From: Bacteroidales bacterium
GTDB lineage: Bacteria > Bacteroidota > Bacteroidia > Bacteroidales > UBA932
NCBI GenBank assembly: GCA_024401695.1
Contig: JAKSKN010000004.1
Coordinates: forward strand, 62,001 to 126,000
Direction of reading: 5' to 3'
Length of the DNA stretch: 64,000 nt
Part shown: positions 3 through 61,310 of the stretch, piece after piece
Numbering within the stretch: position 1 is the first letter of the stretch
Layout of the letters: each line of letters starts with the position of its first letter
Position numbers and translations under genes: made by a program
The notes under the pieces: model-generated
What the model saw: the letters and a program-made list of their open reading frames with translations, nothing else
Told to the model about the DNA's origin: nothing
Database searches by the model: none

Positions 3-1736
3 CTGGTGCAGGCTCTGGACCCTGAGAGCACAGATGGAAAGTCGTTCGAGGAGGAGTACGGAGAGCGCATGGGCGCCAGGTACTGGAGGTCTGACAAGCC
101 AGGAGAGGTGGTGTCGGTGAAGCCTGACGAGATACGTGTCAAGACTGCGGACGGCAAGGTGGAGAAGGTTGACCTGTACAACAACTTCCAGTTCAACAGG
201 AAGACCTACCTTCACAACAAGCCGCTAGTGGCCAAGGGAGACAAGATAAACCCTGGGCAGTTGCTGGCGTCTTCCAACTTTACGGATGACAACGGCACGA
301 TGAGCATGGGACGCAACGCCCGCATGGCCCTGGTGGCCTACAAGGGCTATTCCATGGACGACGCCGTTGTGGTGTCTGAGAGCTTCGCCAAGAAGATGAC
401 CTCACAGCACAACTACGAGCACGAGGTTGCCAAGGACGACGGAACAAAGTTCGGAAAGGTGCATTTCTCGTCTGTGTTCCCAAGGAAGTTCACCAAGGAG
501 CAGCTTGAGATGGTCGATGACGAGGGTATGGTGAAGCCGGGCACTGTACTGCACTATGGCGACCCGATAATCCTGGCCACCAGGCCGAAGCCGATATACA
601 GCAACGCGGAGCACCTTGGCAAGCTCGGGAAGGCGTTCAGGAGCATCAGGAGTGACGCTTCGGAGATTTGGGAGCACGACTACCCTGGAACCGTTGTGGA
701 CGTCGTGGACGGCAAGAGCGGGCGCAGGGCGTTCGTTACGGCCAAGGCTCCTCTGCAGGTTGGTGACAAGCTGATCACATCGCGAGTGGGTAACAAGGGT
801 ATCGTGTCGAAGATAATACCAGACCACCAGATACTGCGTTCGATGGACGGCAAGCCGTTCGATGTCCTTCTCAATCCGCTTTCACTTCCGTCTCGAGTCA
901 ACACGGCCACCCTGTTCGAGCTGGCCCTGGGCAAGATAGCGGCAAAGACCGGACAACCGTACAAGGTGCCGGCCTTTACAGACAAGGGAGTGTCCAGGCT
1001 GGACATGGTCAAGGGAGAGCTGAAGAAGCATGGAGTCGACAATACCGAGGAGGTGTACGACCCTGTGCTGGGTCGCAAGCTGGCCCAGCCGGTCACAACC
1101 GGCTTCGGATATACCTACAAGCTCCATCACGTCGTTGAGAGCAAGGAGAGCTCGCGCGGCCAGGGAAGCTACGACCAGAACATGCAGCCGTTGAAGGGCG
1201 GTAGCGACGCGGCGCAGGCCAAGCGCATGGGAGGCCTGGAGACGACGGCGTTGATGGCCAAGGGCGGCTACAACGTGATACGAGAGGGTTCCACTATCAA
1301 GGGTACCAGCAACGATGACTACTGGAGGCTTATACGAGAGGGATACAGGCCTGCCGAGCCTGGCGTACCGTTCGTGTTCACCAAGTACCTGGCGCTGCTC
1401 AACGGTGCCGGCATGAACGCGCGTGACCTCGGCAAGGGCACTTTGAGGCTTGAGCCTATGACAGACCGTACTCTGGAGGGAAGGAAGCCGATGGAGGTGA
1501 AGAACAACAAGACCGTCAAGTCGGACACGCTTGAGCCTGAGGAGGGCGGTCTGTTCGACCCGACGATGGTCGCGCTGGACAGGTGGGGCAAGATAACGCT
1601 GCCATCCAAGATGCCGAACCCTGCAATGGAGGGATCTATATGCACTGTTCTGGGTATCCGTGAGAAGGACTTGAGAAGCGTGCTGGCCGGCGACATGACG
1701 TTGAAGGAGGCACAGGAGGCTAACCACAAGAAGTAG
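3..1736 (+). CDS. RNA polymerase beta subunit, C-terminal part, with beta' N-terminal tip (5' partial)
   Basis: Part of a phage multisubunit RNA polymerase. The frame is open to the left window edge, so the gene starts upstream; the first in-window start codon is GTG at 6, used here for numbering. Beta landmarks seen: a segment at about residues 104-131 matching the conserved NxLVAYxxxxGYxxxDA region; GDKLITSRVGNKG at about 253-265, the lysine-rich active-site region (usually RHGNKG, here RVGNKG); and the GSY/QPLKGG/GGLE segment at about 385-415. After about residue 505 the sequence reads GGLFDP, WGKITLP and NP, which resembles the beta' N-terminus (GLFxxxIFG, GHIELxxPV). Beta and the beta' tip therefore seem fused. 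The beta' part with the NADFDGD site is not in this window. The gene ends with TAG and the next ATG follows after 2 nt. Confidence 0.92.
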   Translation: MVQALDPESTDGKSFEEEYGERMGARYWRSDKPGEVVSVKPDEIRVKTADGKVEKVDLYNNFQFNRKTYLHNKPLVAKGDKINPGQLLASSNFTDDNGTMSMGRNARMALVAYKGYSMDDAVVVSESFAKKMTSQHNYEHEVAKDDGTKFGKVHFSSVFPRKFTKEQLEMVDDEGMVKPGTVLHYGDPIILATRPKPIYSNAEHLGKLGKAFRSIRSDASEIWEHDYPGTVVDVVDGKSGRRAFVTAKAPLQVGDKLITSRVGNKGIVSKIIPDHQILRSMDGKPFDVLLNPLSLPSRVNTATLFELALGKIAAKTGQPYKVPAFTDKGVSRLDMVKGELKKHGVDNTEEVYDPVLGRKLAQPVTTGFGYTYKLHHVVESKESSRGQGSYDQNMQPLKGGSDAAQAKRMGGLETTALMAKGGYNVIREGSTIKGTSNDDYWRLIREGYRPAEPGVPFVFTKYLALLNGAGMNARDLGKGTLRLEPMTDRTLEGRKPMEVKNNKTVKSDTLEPEEGGLFDPTMVALDRWGKITLPSKMPNPAMEGSICTVLGIREKDLRSVLAGDMTLKEAQEANHKK

Positions 1737-3600: not shown

Positions 3601-5901
3601 GATTGCAGCGGTTTGCTAGGCGCTATGTACAAGAAGGCTGACGGCCCGCAACAGAGCCCACAACAGCAGGCTCTGTACTCTGCTGCGTCCATGGCCAAAC
3701 CACCTGGCGCCCCTCCTCTTCCAAAGCCTGTGGAGGGAGGAGATCCTGCATCTGATGCACTTGCACAGCAAGAGGCCGAGCAGGCCGAGCAGAAGATGGA
3801 GATCGAGAAGCAGAAGCAGGAGGCTGCCCACCGCAAGGAGGTTGCAGACAGGGACAAGATTATAGCCGACTTGCGCGACAAGCTTCAGAACGCCAACTTC
3901 GAGGCTCAGCTGGCAAGGCAGCAGATGGAGCTGTTCAAGCAGAGACAGGCAGAGATAGACAAGATAAAGGCCGAGCAGGAGAAGCTCAATACAAGGAGGG
4001 ACTCCATGGCCGGCGAGGAAGCCGAGCACAAGTCCAGGATGGCTGAGGCCGTGGCGGATGCCAAGGCCAACATAGCCGAGGAGAGGGCCAAGGCCACGGA
4101 GGAGAGTGCCAACAGCAACGCCCAGGCGTATGTCAAGATGACCGAGGATGCCAGGAAGCATAGCGACGAGATGTTTTCCGGCATAAGGGACGAGATAGCC
4201 GGGCAGAAGGAGGAGCTGTTGAAGCAGCGCGAGGATTTCATGCTTCAGCGGGAGCATGAGGCGGAGGAGAGGATGAAAAAGATGCAGGAGGGCAACAAGG
4301 TGTCTCCGTATCTCATGAAGAGCTTGCAGGATGCAGCGTCGTCAGCCAGGAACATAGCCAAGCTGAACTCCAATATGATTGCAAAATCCGACAACCTTTT
4401 TGCATCTGACCTTGGCAAGAGTGCTGCGGTTACTGCTATGGGTACTACGCAGAATTCTGCACAACCGCAACAGCAGGCGCAGCCACAGCAGCAGACACAG
4501 CCACAGCAGCAGCAAAGTGCAGCTAGGAGTCCGTATAGAGACTCTTTGACTGCCCACTACGGCAACCGGGTGCGTAACGACGACATGAACCGGTTGAGGA
4601 ACATGTATGCATCGAACAGCACCAGGGCCGACGAGCAGGGTAAGGCATACCACAACATACGCGGTGTTATAAGGGACTCTGCAGATTCAAGCGGCTACAT
4701 GAAGCAGATGCTCAACCAGCTTGGCGCAGACAGCATGGAGTCGTATGCCAACGCCAGGAGGAACGCCGCGAACGCCAAGGTAGGTTCGGACGAGTGGATA
4801 GCCGGAGCAAACGACAAGGCGCTTGCGCTTACAGGAGTGTACGACAAGATGGACCAGGGCCTTTCAGGTGCCCTGGCCAGGCAGCGTGCAGAGGCTGACA
4901 AGGGTTTCTTCAGAAACCTGTGGGATGGTACCGTAGACGCGATCACATTTGCCAGGCCGAGGGAACTGTGGGGCAACGTAGGAAAGGCAGGGCAGTTGGC
5001 AGAGATGTACGGCGGCAAGCAGAACGCGTGGGGAGCCGACGGCTTCGCCAATGACCGCGTGCGACAGGCGTATGAGGACATGATAAACGCCAGCGGATAT
5101 TCGCAGGGCTACATGACAGGCTATGCCAAGTCTATACCGGCCACCGTGTCAGACCTGGCAAACATAGGCCTTACGTTTATTCCAGGAATTGGATGGGCTG
5201 CAAGGGGAGCTTCCATGGGCACAAGGCTTGCGTCCGGTGCAGGTATGATGGCCGGTTACACAGGACTTGGTATGCTGGACGACTACCTCAATCCGGCAGG
5301 AAGCGGCTATGATACAAGCTATACTACCAATGCTGGCATAAATCCGTCAGCCTACAATCCTGTCAGGGCCAATGAGGTGGCCGATTATGTCTCCAACGGC
5401 GGTATGGTAAAGCCAGCCGCCGCATCCACAGAGGCTCTTTCGGAGAACACTGCACGTCCTATAGAGGCTGTGACACCGCCAAAGAGAGGTAACGACCTAA
5501 CGGCGTCAAACGTGAACAGCGGATACAACCTGGACACGGCGCAGGGTTGGAACTCGTATATGGCGGACAAGAATTCCATAAACGGACTCATCAGGCTTGT
5601 CAACGGGTTTCTGCCTATGCTGGGGTTAAATGGAAACTCCGTACAGTACGATCCCAGCTCTAGCGGCAAAATCAATCCTATACACTCGGCAGTTGCGCTG
5701 CGTGGTATAAATGCCGCAGTAAACGGCGAGCCGTCGCCAGGCCCTCGCTACGACGGACGACAGAATGGTTACTACACTCCTGCAGACATGCAGAGGAACT
5801 GGTACATGGCTGCCAGGAACGAGCAGTTCGGAAATATGTATGGATCCGGCAAGATACGCAGCATGGTGGACTCTATGCGGGGTGTGACGCCTAATTTTTA
5901 A
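3589..5901 (+). CDS. Large coiled-coil virion protein
   Basis: 770 aa, not recognised. The N-terminus carries MYKKADG (about residues 14-20), the K-x-A signature. Residues about 60-235 are a long charged coiled coil (Q, E, K and A rich heptads), followed by a Gln-rich linker of PQQQ repeats (about 285-305). The C-terminal half is globular, with one hydrophobic Gly-rich stretch (about 525-565: IPGIGWAARG, SGAGMMAGY) that could insert in a membrane. The overall plan resembles an internal head or ejection protein, which is inference. The start is fixed by leaderless promoter P2 directly upstream. Six nt separate it from the next gene. Confidence 0.88.
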   Translation: MRNFDCSGLLGAMYKKADGPQQSPQQQALYSAASMAKPPGAPPLPKPVEGGDPASDALAQQEAEQAEQKMEIEKQKQEAAHRKEVADRDKIIADLRDKLQNANFEAQLARQQMELFKQRQAEIDKIKAEQEKLNTRRDSMAGEEAEHKSRMAEAVADAKANIAEERAKATEESANSNAQAYVKMTEDARKHSDEMFSGIRDEIAGQKEELLKQREDFMLQREHEAEERMKKMQEGNKVSPYLMKSLQDAASSARNIAKLNSNMIAKSDNLFASDLGKSAAVTAMGTTQNSAQPQQQAQPQQQTQPQQQQSAARSPYRDSLTAHYGNRVRNDDMNRLRNMYASNSTRADEQGKAYHNIRGVIRDSADSSGYMKQMLNQLGADSMESYANARRNAANAKVGSDEWIAGANDKALALTGVYDKMDQGLSGALARQRAEADKGFFRNLWDGTVDAITFARPRELWGNVGKAGQLAEMYGGKQNAWGADGFANDRVRQAYEDMINASGYSQGYMTGYAKSIPATVSDLANIGLTFIPGIGWAARGASMGTRLASGAGMMAGYTGLGMLDDYLNPAGSGYDTSYTTNAGINPSAYNPVRANEVADYVSNGGMVKPAAASTEALSENTARPIEAVTPPKRGNDLTASNVNSGYNLDTAQGWNSYMADKNSINGLIRLVNGFLPMLGLNGNSVQYDPSSSGKINPIHSAVALRGINAAVNGEPSPGPRYDGRQNGYYTPADMQRNWYMAARNEQFGNMYGSGKIRSMVDSMRGVTPNF

Positions 5902-5906
5902 CTAGT

Positions 5907-6374
5907 ATGTCTAATTCTATAAGTGCTATATTGAAGGAGGCTGCAAGCTGGAATGTTCCGCAGCCTGAAGCGCAGATGGACAAGGAGGCCGCGGCCAGGG
6001 AACTGGCCATAACGGAGCTGCTGTCCATATCCGCCAACATCAAGGCAATGCACGTGAATACAGGCAAGTATTCACAGCATATGGCCCTGGACCAGGCGTT
6101 CGATGACCTAAATGCCGCCGTGGATACGTTCAACGAGTGCGTGCAGGGTTACTACCTGTATAGCACAGGCAGCAGGCTCAAGCTTGCCAATGCCGAGGTG
6201 ACGTTCAAGCTTCCTGGAGACGGCGGCGTGTTCGATGCTGTGAAGTCTCTTTGCAAGAGGTTCAAGGATGCGTCGGATCCGTTGGTGTCAGGCAAGTCTC
6301 CGCTTGTAAGTGTCCAGGATGATGTGCTAAACTGTTTCTACCAGCTGCTCTACAGGTTGGACTTGAAAGGATAA
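5907..6374 (+). CDS. Small helical virion protein
   Basis: 155 aa, no recognised family. Two K-x-A signatures occur near the N-terminus: ILKEAAS (about residues 8-14) and MDKEAAA (about 24-30). The rest is mainly helical with several Leu-rich amphipathic segments. Its position between virion genes, with 5-6 nt gaps on both sides and no promoter of its own, suggests co-transcription from P2 and a structural role. No catalytic motif is visible. Confidence 0.82.
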   Translation: MSNSISAILKEAASWNVPQPEAQMDKEAAARELAITELLSISANIKAMHVNTGKYSQHMALDQAFDDLNAAVDTFNECVQGYYLYSTGSRLKLANAEVTFKLPGDGGVFDAVKSLCKRFKDASDPLVSGKSPLVSVQDDVLNCFYQLLYRLDLKG

Positions 6375-9893: not shown

Positions 9894-10208
9894 ATGTTAA
9901 AGAATTCTGCTATAGCGGCGCACGATACCGTAATAGATACCGTGGTAGATACTGCGCCTTATTCAAATGCACTGGACAGGAGTACGTTTGTAAAGACATC
10001 GTTCCACTGCCCAGGCAGGACGCTAGTTATACAGGTGTCCAACAAGCCTAGGCCCGACGAGACAAGCGACGACGACTGGGTGGAGCTTGGAGGACACTCG
10101 TCCGGCGAGGACTTCGTATGGGCCGAGGCACCGGTCATGTGGATGCGCGTAAGGGGCGTCGAGGCCGGTGACCAGGTGTTCGTGCACAGTATATTCACGC
10201 AGAGGTAA
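9894..10208 (+). CDS. Small beta-rich protein upstream of beta'
   Basis: 104 aa from ATG 9894; the upstream TTG frame (9861) would overlap promoter P3 and is rejected. Sequence alternates hydrophobic and polar residues in a beta-sandwich-like way (RTLVIQVSNKP, VMWMRVRGVE, DQVFVHSIF). This resembles small phage adhesin or fibre-tip domains that begin with a substitution for a binding loop, but no family is recognised. Its TAA overlaps the ATG of the beta' gene (TAATG), so translation of the polymerase subunit is probably coupled to it. Confidence 0.72.
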   Translation: MLKNSAIAAHDTVIDTVVDTAPYSNALDRSTFVKTSFHCPGRTLVIQVSNKPRPDETSDDDWVELGGHSSGEDFVWAEAPVMWMRVRGVEAGDQVFVHSIFTQR

Positions 10209-13200
10209 TGAAGGCCGTATCCCTCCTGGTCAATTCCTACCTGCCGGATGACCTCAAGGACTACTCGCAGGTGTACGACTCCAAGAGTATAAACAGGATA
10301 CTCTACGCAGTGGCGTTGAAGCATCCAGACTTATACGCAAAGTTGGAGAAGCAGATAGGCGACATAGGAAGGAACGCGTCATACATTAACGGCGAAACCA
10401 TAACACTGGGGGACCTTGAGCCTGTCATAGACCGTAAGGCGTTGTACGACAGCATGGACTCCGAGATAAAGGCGTTGCCAAGGGATAGGAACTTTACAGG
10501 CAAGCGCAGGGAGATATTCCAGAAGTACAACAACATTATCGAGAAGGAGACTGCCAAGGCAGGGCTGGCCAAGAGGAACAACATAGCCATGTCAGTGTTG
10601 TCCGGCGCCAGGGGTAAGAACCCGCAGTTCAAGGCCATGGTGTCTACACCCGGTACGTACTCCGACTATAAGGGCGAGACTGTGGACGTGTTCTCGAAGG
10701 AGTCGTTCGCAGACGGTATAAGGCCCGCCATGTTTTGCGCCAGTACAAACGGCACGCGTGCATCTGTCGTGTCGGCGAAGGTTTCGACGGCAAAGGGCGG
10801 AGACTGGGCCAAGCAGATGGCGGCCATATCTGCCAACCAGGTTATCAGGGAACAGGATTGCAAGACCGGCAACGGCATATCACTGCCTATAGACGATACC
10901 AGTATTGTCGGCAGAAAGCTGGCAAAGGACGCAGGCAAGTTCAAGGCCGGCGAGTTCGTAACAAGGGAGATGCTTGCCTCTATGGCCAACGACGGCGTGA
11001 AGAACGTAGTTGTACGGTCGGCTCTTACCTGCGGCACGAAGAACGGACTTTGCGCCCACTGCATAGGAAAGTATTTCAACGGAGGAAAGTTGCCGAAGAT
11101 AGGCGATTCTGTTGGCTTGGTCGCGTCAACATCGAGTTCTGAACCTGTGTGCCTGGTCGAGGGTACTATGGTGCGTATGGCTGACGGTACAGACAAGGCC
11201 ATACAGGATATAAAGCCAGGTGACATGGTGCTCGGGTCTGATTTGAAGGGATTTTGTAGGCCTACAAGGGTTGTCAACGTGTTTCACAACGGTCCAAGGG
11301 AGTGCTACAGGACAAAGGTGGCCAAGACGCATACTACCAAGAGCAGGAATGCCGAGTTTGTGTATCTTGAGTCCACGTTGGCCCATAAGGTGCTGGCATG
11401 TAATGCAGGAGTTGGCGGCATTAGGTTGAAAGACGCTGTTCCTTCTATACGGCCTGTAGGAGAGCTTCCTAAGGCTAAGTACAACAGGCTGATGCTGCAG
11501 ATGCAGGCAGGCTGGGACACGGACGCGGGAGTGCGTGAGCCTATGGCCATGCTCCTGGGAATGTTGGTGGGTGACGGGTCGTACAAGGGAACCGCATCCG
11601 GTTCTGCGGCTGTCGCAGTGAAGCTTTCATGCTACGACGATGAGCAGGCGGAAGAGCTCCGTGGCGAGCTTGAGCCTATGGGGCTGCTTGTTAAAGAATA
11701 CACTGCACCTCATGAGTACAGGATAGTAGAGGATGACCAGTACGACACCTCAAGGTGGACTCATATAGACGGTTACGGAGACCGTGATTGCGACAAGGTA
11801 CGCAACAGAGTGCGTGCGAAGCTTATCCTGGAGGGTATGTGGGGACAGTCATGTTATACCAAGACTTTACCGAGAAGTATATGGACTTGGGACAAGGAGA
11901 GCGTGTGCAAGTTTGTCGGCGGACTGATAGCCACCGATGGGTATGTAAGCAAGGGTGTGGTAGGATACTCTTCCAACAACAAGGCTCTGCTGGAGGATAT
12001 ACGTAAGCTGTTGGAGTCCAGGTTGGGTGTGTACTCTGCTGCGATAGCGTCCAGTACCAAGAAGCGTCCAGACGGAGGTGAATACAATCCGACGTATTTC
12101 TTCTGTATAGGCGAGACTAGTAGTCTGCAGGCACTGCATGCGCAGGTAAGGATACCTGGACGCAAACAGGCTTTGTTCGACAGGCTGCTTGAGTCCAGGG
12201 GACCGGCCAAGTCCAGGCTTGCCATGTTCCGCGCGGTTGAGCAGGAGTATATTGGAACAAGGGATACCTGGGACATCGAGGTTGACAACGACACTCACCT
12301 GTTCGCGCTATCTAACGGACTGATAGTCAGTAACACGCAAATGGCTTTGTGCTTGGAGGAGCATACGCTCGTTCGTATGGCTGACGGTTCAGCAAAGGAA
12401 CTCAAGGACATAGAACCGGGAGAGATGGTGCTTGGGGCAGACAAGAACGCCAACACATTTCCTGTTAAGGTGCTGGACAAGTTTGACCAAGGTGTCAGGA
12501 GTGTGGCCACATACAGGTTTTCCGGAGATGACAATATTGATGTCTGTATAACTGCCACTGAGGATCACAAGATATTGTGTGACGGCGGTATTCATAGGCT
12601 GTCTGATGTAGTTGCCAACCTCGGAGATGATTTCAAGTTGGAGTTTAGCCCTGCTCGTTGCCTTGATATAGAGGTTGACCATCCAGACCATTTGTTCGTT
12701 CTTGCCAACGGGCTGATCACGTCCAACAGCGCCAAGCATACCGCAGGTATGACCAAGGACAAGATGACGTTCTCGGGCCTCCCGGTAATACAGCAGTTCA
12801 CACAGTCTCCAGAGAAGTTCAAGGACCGCGCTACGCTGTCAGAGGTAGACGGAAAGGTGGACTCCGTTGAGGAGGCGCCACAGGGCGGTATGTACGTTAC
12901 GGTGTCCGGCAGGAGGCACTACGTGCTGCCGGGTCATGATGTGGAGGTGAAGGCTGGGGACACCGTTGAGGCTGGAGACGAATTGTCAGAGGGTCTTGCC
13001 GATGCGGAGGACATAGTGCGCTTAAAGGGCCTGGGAGCTGGACGCAAGTATTATGCGGACAGGTTGAGCAGGATACTGGAGGACTCAGGTGCCGCGTCAG
13101 ACCGTAGGAACATAGAGATTATAGCCAGGGGCGCCGTAAACCATGTCCGTATAACGGGAAACGACAGCGTGGGTGCGTATTTGCCTGACGACGTAGTAGA

Positions 13201-13603
13201 CTATAACGCCCTTCAAGCCACTTATGCCGCCCCGGAAACGTCTATACGCACCGCTCCGTCGCAGGCTGTCGGCAAGTACATACAGGAGCCAGTGCTGCAC
13301 TACTCTATAGGTACAAGGGTCACTCCCAACGTTGCGAAGGATCTCAAGGACAACGGGTACGACTCCGTACTGGTAGACCAGTCTGCCCCAGGATTCGAGC
13401 CGGAGCTTGTCAGGCTCAGGACGGCATCTCACAATAACAGGGACTGGTTGGCGTCGCAGGCCACGTCGTACCTTACTCAACAGATAGAGGACAGCGTGGT
13501 CAGGGGCGACGACACCAACGTGATGGCCAATGACGACTATAGGCCCAGGATAGCGTATGGACGCGGATTCGCCGAGAATGCCGGGGAGACCGGAAGGTTT
13601 TAA
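10208..13603 (+). CDS. RNA polymerase beta' C-terminal subunit with two inteins
   Basis: 1131 aa precursor; removing two inteins leaves a 610-residue beta' C-terminal part. The N-terminus (NSYLPDD, then D-x-x-x-x-IG and a DL motif) aligns with the part of beta' where cyanobacterial and plastid RpoC2 begin, so beta' is split at a natural split point. Residues C275, C282 and C285 belong to the zinc site (CGTKNGLCAHC). The next extein, after splicing, reads VASTSSSEPV-TQMAL-SAKHTAG, matching SIGEPGTQLTMRTFHTGG of the trigger loop. The trigger histidine is kept, and Met and Arg are replaced by Leu and Ser. Intein 1 is residues 315-709 and intein 2 is 715-840. The catalytic NADFDGD part must be encoded elsewhere. 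Confidence 0.92.
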   Translation: MKAVSLLVNSYLPDDLKDYSQVYDSKSINRILYAVALKHPDLYAKLEKQIGDIGRNASYINGETITLGDLEPVIDRKALYDSMDSEIKALPRDRNFTGKRREIFQKYNNIIEKETAKAGLAKRNNIAMSVLSGARGKNPQFKAMVSTPGTYSDYKGETVDVFSKESFADGIRPAMFCASTNGTRASVVSAKVSTAKGGDWAKQMAAISANQVIREQDCKTGNGISLPIDDTSIVGRKLAKDAGKFKAGEFVTREMLASMANDGVKNVVVRSALTCGTKNGLCAHCIGKYFNGGKLPKIGDSVGLVASTSSSEPVCLVEGTMVRMADGTDKAIQDIKPGDMVLGSDLKGFCRPTRVVNVFHNGPRECYRTKVAKTHTTKSRNAEFVYLESTLAHKVLACNAGVGGIRLKDAVPSIRPVGELPKAKYNRLMLQMQAGWDTDAGVREPMAMLLGMLVGDGSYKGTASGSAAVAVKLSCYDDEQAEELRGELEPMGLLVKEYTAPHEYRIVEDDQYDTSRWTHIDGYGDRDCDKVRNRVRAKLILEGMWGQSCYTKTLPRSIWTWDKESVCKFVGGLIATDGYVSKGVVGYSSNNKALLEDIRKLLESRLGVYSAAIASSTKKRPDGGEYNPTYFFCIGETSSLQALHAQVRIPGRKQALFDRLLESRGPAKSRLAMFRAVEQEYIGTRDTWDIEVDNDTHLFALSNGLIVSNTQMALCLEEHTLVRMADGSAKELKDIEPGEMVLGADKNANTFPVKVLDKFDQGVRSVATYRFSGDDNIDVCITATEDHKILCDGGIHRLSDVVANLGDDFKLEFSPARCLDIEVDHPDHLFVLANGLITSNSAKHTAGMTKDKMTFSGLPVIQQFTQSPEKFKDRATLSEVDGKVDSVEEAPQGGMYVTVSGRRHYVLPGHDVEVKAGDTVEAGDELSEGLADAEDIVRLKGLGAGRKYYADRLSRILEDSGAASDRRNIEIIARGAVNHVRITGNDSVGAYLPDDVVDYNALQATYAAPETSIRTAPSQAVGKYIQEPVLHYSIGTRVTPNVAKDLKDNGYDSVLVDQSAPGFEPELVRLRTASHNNRDWLASQATSYLTQQIEDSVVRGDDTNVMANDDYRPRIAYGRGFAENAGETGRF
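11150..12334 (+). mobile_element. Intein 1 with LAGLIDADG homing endonuclease
   Basis: 395 residues, starting at C315 and ending ..LIVSN before extein Thr. Splicing block A is CLVEGTMVRMADG with KPGDMVLG. Block B is STLAHKVL. The C-terminal blocks are DTWDIEVDNDTHLFALSNG and SN. Two LAGLIDADG-type motifs are visible (LLGMLVGDGSY near 11550-11580 and FVGGLIATDGYV near 11911-11945), so this is a full-size, potentially mobile intein. The penultimate residue is Ser, not the usual His. The downstream +1 residue is Thr, an acceptable nucleophile. Confidence 0.93.
12350..12727 (+). other. Intein 2, mini-intein without endonuclease
   Basis: 126 residues, starting at C715 (CLEEHTLVRMADG, EPGEMVLG), with a block B-like TATEDHKIL and C-terminal blocks CLDIEVDHPDHLFVLANG and ITSN. 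The +1 extein residue is Ser. No LAGLIDADG motif is present, so it is a minimal splicing domain. Its ends closely resemble those of intein 1 (VRMADG, NGLI-SN), suggesting common origin. Only five extein residues (TQMAL) separate it from intein 1. Confidence 0.92.
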
Positions 13604-60416: not shown

Positions 60417-61310
60417 ATGACATCGAAGGAAACTATCAAGGAGATACAGAGGATAGCTGGCACTACTGCAGATGGCCTGTGGGGTCCCAATACGCTAAAT
60501 GCCGTGGCGCGCAAGCTCGGATGTCCTGCGTCTGTCAAGGATGTACAGGCTACAGTCGGGGTTACTGCCGACGGTATCGTCGGTCCCAAGACGTTGTCGG
60601 CCGTGTACTCAAGGTTGTCTGGCGGATCGTGCGGCTGCCCTGCAGGCTCTGGAACGCACACAGTGTTCATAGACCCTGGGCATACGTCTGATTACGAGCG
60701 CGAGCATCCTTCACAGTTTACAGGGGTAGACTGGAAGTCCGGCAAGCCGCTGGAGATAGTCCGCATACTGGGACTGGACAGGAACCCGAACGACAGCGTG
60801 GAGCACGCCCTAAACTGCGCCATAGCCAACGCACTCAACAGCGAGCTTCGCGGAAGGGGCAAGTTCGAGACCATGCTGTACGACAATCCCAGCCTGTCCA
60901 ACGGCTCGGAAATAGGTCAGGTTTACAAGAGGTCGAACGCGTTCAACCCAGACGTGTTCATATCCATACACTGCAACGCCCAGGGAGGCTCCAAGTGGAA
61001 GTCGCTGGGAGGAACGGCATCAGGAGCCGTAGGCCTGTACTGCGCCAAGAACTCCAAGAACTCCAAACTGGCGCAATACGTGGTTAATGCGATAAACGCC
61101 TACAGGAAGGAGGCGAAGGCGTGCAACAACAGGGCCGAAACACTTAGCAAGAGTTCTGTAGGCGTACTGGCCAACGCCGACCCGTCCATAGCGGCATGCC
61201 TGGTTGAGGTAGGGTTCTACGACAACCTGGACGACCTGTATTGGATGTGCACGCACCTCAAGGGGCTGGCTGCCGCAATCGCAGACGGCATATCTGGTTT
61301 TCTTGGGTAG
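60417..61310 (+). CDS. Endolysin: N-acetylmuramoyl-L-alanine amidase (Amidase_3) with two PG-binding repeats
   Basis: 297 aa. Two tandem peptidoglycan-binding-type repeats (residues about 8-35 and 41-68, each ending DG(L/I)(W/V)GP(N/K)TL.AV) precede an Amidase_3 domain from about residue 80. The predicted zinc ligands are H89 (FIDPGH), E129 (DSVEHALN) and H185 (SIHCNA), and the catalytic Glu is E264 (VEVGFYDN). It cuts the bond between N-acetylmuramic acid and L-alanine. There is no signal peptide, so it needs a holin or a similar export route. It is encoded after the tail genes, followed by a sugar-modification cluster. Confidence 0.92.
   Translation: MTSKETIKEIQRIAGTTADGLWGPNTLNAVARKLGCPASVKDVQATVGVTADGIVGPKTLSAVYSRLSGGSCGCPAGSGTHTVFIDPGHTSDYEREHPSQFTGVDWKSGKPLEIVRILGLDRNPNDSVEHALNCAIANALNSELRGRGKFETMLYDNPSLSNGSEIGQVYKRSNAFNPDVFISIHCNAQGGSKWKSLGGTASGAVGLYCAKNSKNSKLAQYVVNAINAYRKEAKACNNRAETLSKSSVGVLANADPSIAACLVEVGFYDNLDDLYWMCTHLKGLAAAIADGISGFLG

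Follow-up and report, generated by a model that had tools for sequence, protein, structure and literature searches.

We analysed a stretch of DNA of 64,000 nucleotides (the window), which covers C33:62001-126000 of a phage-like contig of 203,138 bases in a draft assembly of 2.65 Mb and 71 contigs. One open reading frame of 1131 aa in the window encodes the C-terminal part of a phage RNA polymerase beta' subunit and holds two inteins; all of its five segments, extein and intein, follow one another in a single uninterrupted frame (Table 1). On the whole protein, the Pfam model RNA_pol_Rpb1_5 matched with 8.7e-8 from aa 170 to 984, spanning both inserts, and the NCBIfam rpoC model matched with 3.6e-50, a score far under that model's own full-length cut-off. 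The inserts gave Pfam matches to Hom_end_hint (3.5e-12), LAGLIDADG_3 (8.7e-12) and Hint (1.5e-8), and the NCBIfam model intein_Cterm passed its cut-off. With these Pfam and NCBIfam matches on the whole protein, the observation goes beyond chance.

The RpoC homology with a trigger loop, together with partner subunit parts on the same contig, identifies a multisubunit phage polymerase. The beta part at the left window end has relatives in the Vibrio phages D69, D148 and D181 and in Salmonella phage Arash, and the cellular RpoC of the same assembly is located on a different contig. The N-terminal part of the phage beta' lies apart from the beta gene and the beta' C-terminal part and on the opposite strand; the ORF beside it looks terminase-like by eye and is a candidate only. 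Elsewhere in the window, positions 5907-6374 match phrog_858, a starvation-inducible transcriptional regulator (2.1e-15), and positions 60417-61310 encode an N-acetylmuramoyl-L-alanine amidase with peptidoglycan-binding motifs, possibly an endolysin.

Table 1. Polymerase genes, intein features and intein insertion sites. Slashes mark the extein junction; loci listed for a site come from the extein scans and from a separate intein scan.
Feature	Coordinates	Strand	Evidence	Found in
Phage RNA polymerase beta subunit, C-terminal part, runs off left window end	3..1736	+	PF00562 6.3e-56	window
Phage RNA polymerase beta', C-terminal part (bridge helix, trigger loop), two inteins inside	10208..13603	+	Pfam, NCBIfam, phage homologs	window
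N-extein, C-terminal end ...STSSSEPV	10208..11149	+		window
Intein 1, site a (V/T), 395 aa, aa 315-709, Hint and LAGLIDADG endonuclease	11150..12334	+		window
First LAGLIDADG motif of intein 1, LLGMLVGDGS	11552..11581	+		window
Second LAGLIDADG motif of intein 1, VGGLIATDGY, within LAGLIDADG_3 match (intein aa 253-301)	11915..11944	+		window
Micro-extein TQMAL, five residues, within trigger-loop N-terminal helix	12335..12349	+		window
Intein 2, site b (L/S), 126-aa mini-intein, aa 715-840, without endonuclease	12350..12727	+		window
C-extein, N-terminal SAKHTAG (trigger-loop His)	12728..13600	+		window
Phage beta' N-terminal part (L177), motif ADFDGD	C33:131673-132659	minus		same contig, outside window
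Site a0 (L/SEPV)				L089, L127, L137, L149
Site a (V or A/TQ)				window, L112
Site b (L/S)				window, L085, L089, L091, L095, L137, L151
Site b1 (one residue beyond b)				L034, L090, L097, L168
Site after trigger-loop His				L072, L100, L169

The original prediction of a LAGLIDADG intein and a mini-intein flanking TQMAL agrees exactly with these coordinates and lengths. Analysed alone, intein 1 matched LAGLIDADG_3 with 1.2e-12 and keeps the acidic residues in both LAGLIDADG-like motifs; neither of two general intein-end models matched it at 0.05. Intein 2 alone matched Hint with 2.3e-4 (21.3 bits, under the Pfam cut-off of 29.7), was over the cut-off of intein_Cterm (17.9 versus 15.6) and under that of intein_Nterm. 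Its 126 aa contain no LAGLIDADG-like motif and consist of a Hint domain only, which shows weak similarity to solved inteins, for example 4kl6 (E 0.0041) and the RecA mini intein 5k08 (E 0.0097). An RNA intron was also considered as the origin of the inserts and was ruled out: each insert continues the reading frame without a stop, and protein profiles of Hint domains and endonucleases match the inserts.

That the in-frame pair lies inside the polymerase trigger loop is supported by uninterrupted homologs. Where the window has intein 1-TQMAL-intein 2, D69 reads SEVL-TQMVL-STKH and Arash SEVL-TQMIL-GTKH, and alignment of the D69 beta' to the solved Thermus beta' chain (EPGTQLTMRTFHTGG) places SEVLTQMVLSTKH on GEPGTQLTMRTFH, which is the trigger loop. 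We take site a to correspond to 927/928 and site b to 932/933 in E. coli numbering. The micro-extein includes the residues in contact with the incoming nucleotide, Gln and Met/Leu, and the His follows in the C-extein. Counting the window, D69 and Arash, there were 114 unique ORFs, and 12 of these are interrupted within the trigger-loop core E-x-x-x-Q-x-x-L-x-x-K-H. The core was found by pattern in 101 others, with Gln in 99, L/I/M in all 101 and His in 100, and was read by eye as QPLTQMALDSKH in the remaining one (L077). The window exteins keep the Q, L and H of the loop.

Relatives were collected by two IMG/VR scans with exteins, which gave at least 132 loci and 109 unique ORFs (L104, a truncated copy of L100, is counted among the latter). 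The first scan yielded 52 loci, to which a third extein scan (43 loci) added nothing new. From the second scan, the best 80 of 196 were used, and six of the seven C-exteins in its query, among them that of the window, belong to genes with inteins; the sample is therefore skewed towards intein-bearing phages. L092, L093 and L094 were excluded, the first two of which look like inteins of other genes. Within this sample, a trigger-loop intein is present in 15 of the 109 unique metagenomic ORFs (L104 being one of the 15) and absent from 94, a bridge-helix intein is present in 9/109, an intein at either place in 19/109 and two trigger-loop inteins in 2/109. An intein at either place was found in two of 42 unique ORFs from the first scan versus 17 of 67 from the second.

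Searches with single window proteins against IMG/VR gave no match or, in one case, two distant loci, so that alignments were needed. Against 299 genomes of the host family, the C-extein found its own gene; the other matches listed were 5e-9 or weaker at 23-28% identity, many of them in frames of about 1420 aa, and were taken as cellular RpoC. In 395 genomes of the phylum, intein 1 matched only the window's own copy at E 1e-20, and no third relative of either intein was detected in the window's own genome at E 1. A scan of genome contigs revealed no beta' relative, and a further one revealed a single protein with a Hint-like stretch in a Rhodobacteraceae assembly.

The inteins of these phages occupy five trigger-loop junctions over 13 residues, which from a0 to the His junction read SEPVTQMALSAKH in window letters, and in addition the bridge helix. 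Site a is filled without b in L112 ('EPA/C...VVSN/TQAAL'), where it holds the sole intein. Conversely, site b is filled without a or a0 in four loci: as the sole intein in L091 and L151, next to one bridge-helix intein in L095 and next to two in L085. Because some relatives have only one of the sites a and b filled, neither intein needs the other. Apart from these, L072 carries a distant intein (4955-6031) that follows the trigger-loop His of what is probably a fused beta-beta' phage polymerase; the ORF is open over 2256 aa and extends past the locus start. In six loci (L137, L138, L139, L154, L165 and L173), the beta' ORFs continue for several hundred residues past the RpoC-like part.

Both window inteins carry the hallmarks of class 1 inteins (Cys1, TxxH in block B, terminal Asn and a +1 Ser, Thr or Cys). 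Intein 1 has Cys1, TLAH at aa 76, a terminal Ser-Asn and a +1 Thr; intein 2 has Cys1, TEDH at aa 70, a terminal Ser-Asn and a +1 Ser. The penultimate His is absent from both and Ser stands in its place; according to the accessible text of PMC7765530, the C-terminus of an intein is usually His-Asn. A penultimate Ser does not bar class 1 membership, because inteins ending in Gly-Asn are recorded in the accessible part of PMC1635734. Such an end, combined with the low profile scores of intein 2 alone, could nevertheless point to inteins of which one or both are splicing-defective, so that the phage would live with the fragments of a split or dead beta'. We consider this improbable. All of the 29 inteins extracted from the family have Cys1, a terminal Asn, a +1 Ser (24) or Thr (5) and TxxH in the block B region, and 25 of them end in Ser-Asn, among them full-length inteins with both endonuclease motifs. 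Moreover, neither window intein contains a stop or frameshift, and the extein Q, L and H are kept. Two family members differ at their ends: the intein at L034:4976-5407 ends in His-Asn and has no block F His (DALF), and the one at L100:2676-3890 ends in Lys-Asn and has DELF. The penultimate and block F His positions may swap roles.

Tight pairs similar to that of the window were found in three relatives. L089 and L137 each carry inteins at a0 and b, separated by a 9-residue spacer (SEPVTQGAL and SEPLSQAQL, respectively), and the bridge helix of L137 holds one more intein. L085 has two bridge-helix mini-inteins (4554-5429) around the 8-residue spacer STQDAGFF, which, placed by eye, falls on KTADAGYL of the host RpoC bridge helix; its third intein is at b. 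These pairs bear on whether the window pair could be an artificial join of two alleles side by side, as might occur in a draft assembly of 71 contigs. Such a chimera is extremely unlikely, since comparable trigger-loop pairs exist in L089 and L137, two contigs of different metagenomes, and since the window's reading frame is kept through all five ORF segments.

The two window inteins belong to one family: they are 39% identical over the first 100 aa and share 15 of 21 residues at the C end, and their first 87 nt are 72% identical. This likeness could reflect a local tandem duplication, in which intein 2 would be a neighbouring copy of intein 1 that lost its endonuclease, a history compatible with ordinary splicing. 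For the bridge-helix pair of L085 such a history is plausible, with 54% identity (74 of 137) over the full length, the variable linker included. In the window, however, the nearest kin of each intein lies elsewhere: in Hint columns, intein 1 is closest to the site-a intein of L112 (58%) and intein 2 to the bridge-helix intein of L095 (59%), against 42% between the two.

Trees were built from Hint columns (28 rows, 112 columns) and from full-length inteins (21 rows), excluding the L072 intein as too distant. In the Hint tree, intein 1 is sister to the L112 site-a intein (95/92), and intein 2 pairs with the L095 bridge-helix intein (87/80), the two belonging to a group that also contains L095_b and L098 (86/87); support is modest overall, with 4 of 25 inner branches starred. 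The site-b inteins do not form one clade in this tree (5 changes, a count equally low in 81 of 500 shuffles). In the full-length tree, the a and a0 inteins are split from all others (99/99), and intein 1 stands weakly beside the long-branched a0 intein of L089 (65/50), not beside L112. In AU tests run after the tree was seen, sisterhood of the window inteins was rejected (p-AU 0.007). The same constraint on the other pairs was rejected for L137 (0.007) and not for L089 (0.098) or L085 (0.146). The window inteins therefore come from different lineages, and a local duplication is an unlikely origin of the pair.

On the C-extein tree, the sister of the window is L095 (SH-aLRT 99), in which b is filled and a is not and whose C-extein is 65% identical to that of the window over 280 columns. 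Alleles with and without inteins are scattered over this tree. This patchy presence fits intein mobility. A history in which b was inherited from the common ancestor and intein 1 entered later is possible, because kinship of intein 2 with L095_b was not rejected (p 0.225).

Based on these findings, we think it very probable that two separately entered inteins each splice at their own junctions, in either order, and that TQMAL is kept. We propose that two mobile inteins of one phage-polymerase family entered neighbouring trigger-loop sites in the beta' of a large phage separately. Each would fold as its own Hint domain and splice via Cys1, the terminal Asn and the +1 Thr (intein 1) or Ser (intein 2), yielding a ligated extein with EPVTQMALSAKH in which TQMAL is retained. 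TQMAL would flank both inteins, at positions +1 to +5 for intein 1 and at -1 to -5 for intein 2. The loop with its conserved Gln, Leu and His would stay broken until both inteins have left, and splicing would therefore be needed for a working enzyme. This is in agreement with the original prediction that splicing is required to restore the catalytic motif. Intein activity is not certain from motifs, with a penultimate Ser where His is usual, and splicing itself, its order, homing and co-conversion are what we infer for the window inteins.

A different outcome, also part of the original prediction, would be alternative splicing, in which the N half of intein 1 works with the C half of intein 2 and removes both inteins together with TQMAL, giving a second subunit with a shortened loop. 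The two Hint domains are alike enough to suggest this, and alternative splicing has been reported for domain-swapped inteins in the available text of PMC8175363. We did not find this idea to hold up well, and regard it as very unlikely. Skipping would lose the Gln kept in 99/101 loops as well as a residue that is L, I or M in all 101, either site a or b is occupied alone in relatives, and the window inteins are from different lineages and not matched copies. If skipping did occur, the phage would have a second beta' without the core of the trigger-loop helix, and the 8- and 9-residue micro-exteins of the L085 bridge helix, L089 and L137 would be parallel cases.

Ordinary splicing of both inteins would also be compatible with a conditional switch, in which slow or stress-dependent splicing times late transcription. 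A precedent comes from the mycobacterial DnaB, whose two inteins differ in splicing rate, one of them being oxidation-responsive (PMC6195587, accessible part). We judge a switch to be quite improbable, as it is not a conserved control: relatives manage without one or both inteins.

Under the proposed model of two separately entered, separately spliced inteins, intein 1 is probably home-capable, since it keeps both endonuclease motifs, and intein 2 lacks an endonuclease. When intein 1 homes into an allele without both, intein 2 should be co-copied, because the 15 bp to the insertion point of intein 1 are a very short distance for recombination to resolve in.

Inteins in the largest subunit of archaeal RNA polymerases are known, namely Mja rPol A'' and Nph rPol A'' (PMC1635734, as far as its available text goes). 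We compared their position with the window via the host RpoC. With a 30-aa host RpoC fragment (...TQLTLRTFH), the A'' model TIGR02389 matched through to the H, whereas the intein-containing NF011491 matched only to TQLTL. Along the host RpoC, the match to NF011491 (860 positions) stops at profile position 77 and restarts at 759. Neither A'' model matched the 179 host residues after the trigger-loop His, so that support for the junction comes from the N side. As judged from these N-side profile ends, the archaeal rPol A'' intein probably shares the site-b junction. Among ten inteins scanned, NF011491 matched L137_b (E 0.006) and L089_a0 (0.021), and the window's two were not listed at 0.05. Because the archaeal A'' intein probably lies at site b, a trigger-loop intein as such is probably not new. 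Both systems place an intein in the trigger-loop subunit; the archaeal one, however, is a single intein of a cellular enzyme and has no partner across a micro-extein.

What appears to be new are tight intein pairs with micro-exteins in catalytic helices of phage RNA polymerases. For proteins with two inteins, the accessible text of PMC8966425 gives spacings of 85 residues in a Thermococcus DNA polymerase and 48 residues in P. abyssi CDC21, compared with 5 residues in the window and 8 and 9 in its relatives; the pair is indeed unusually close, as had been predicted. Among the full-text matches listed and the passages covered, no report of inteins this closely spaced was found, which is not proof that none exists. 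The spacing in the window raises the question of the minimum extein that two inteins can share while both splice. In addition, with one intein family settled in the bridge helix as well as at five junctions of the trigger loop of one phage polymerase family, the site hopping of inteins becomes traceable within a single gene.

Several known systems resemble the window in part. In crAss-like phages, TerL is likewise a phage gene with two in-frame inteins; it is another gene, and a tight pair is not described in the available part of that report (PMC7886860). The DnaB of Mycobacterium smegmatis combines a mini-intein and an endonuclease-bearing intein in one protein, but these lie in two motifs and belong to two splicing classes, whereas both window inteins have Cys1 and belong to one family (PMC6195587, accessible part). 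Another likeness is to the haloarchaeal MCM, a single catalytic protein in which highly conserved sites close to one another harbour several inteins. Its accessible text (PMC10643990) discusses how neighbouring inteins may interfere in homing and how a HEN-less neighbour may co-home, and asks whether an endonuclease-less intein can home with its neighbour's help. Both MCM inteins studied there have working endonucleases, whereas the partner in the window is a mini-intein 15 bp away. It should ride every conversion of an empty allele and would thus provide a sharp test of co-homing, and the gene is a good natural test of how intein parasites share one site.
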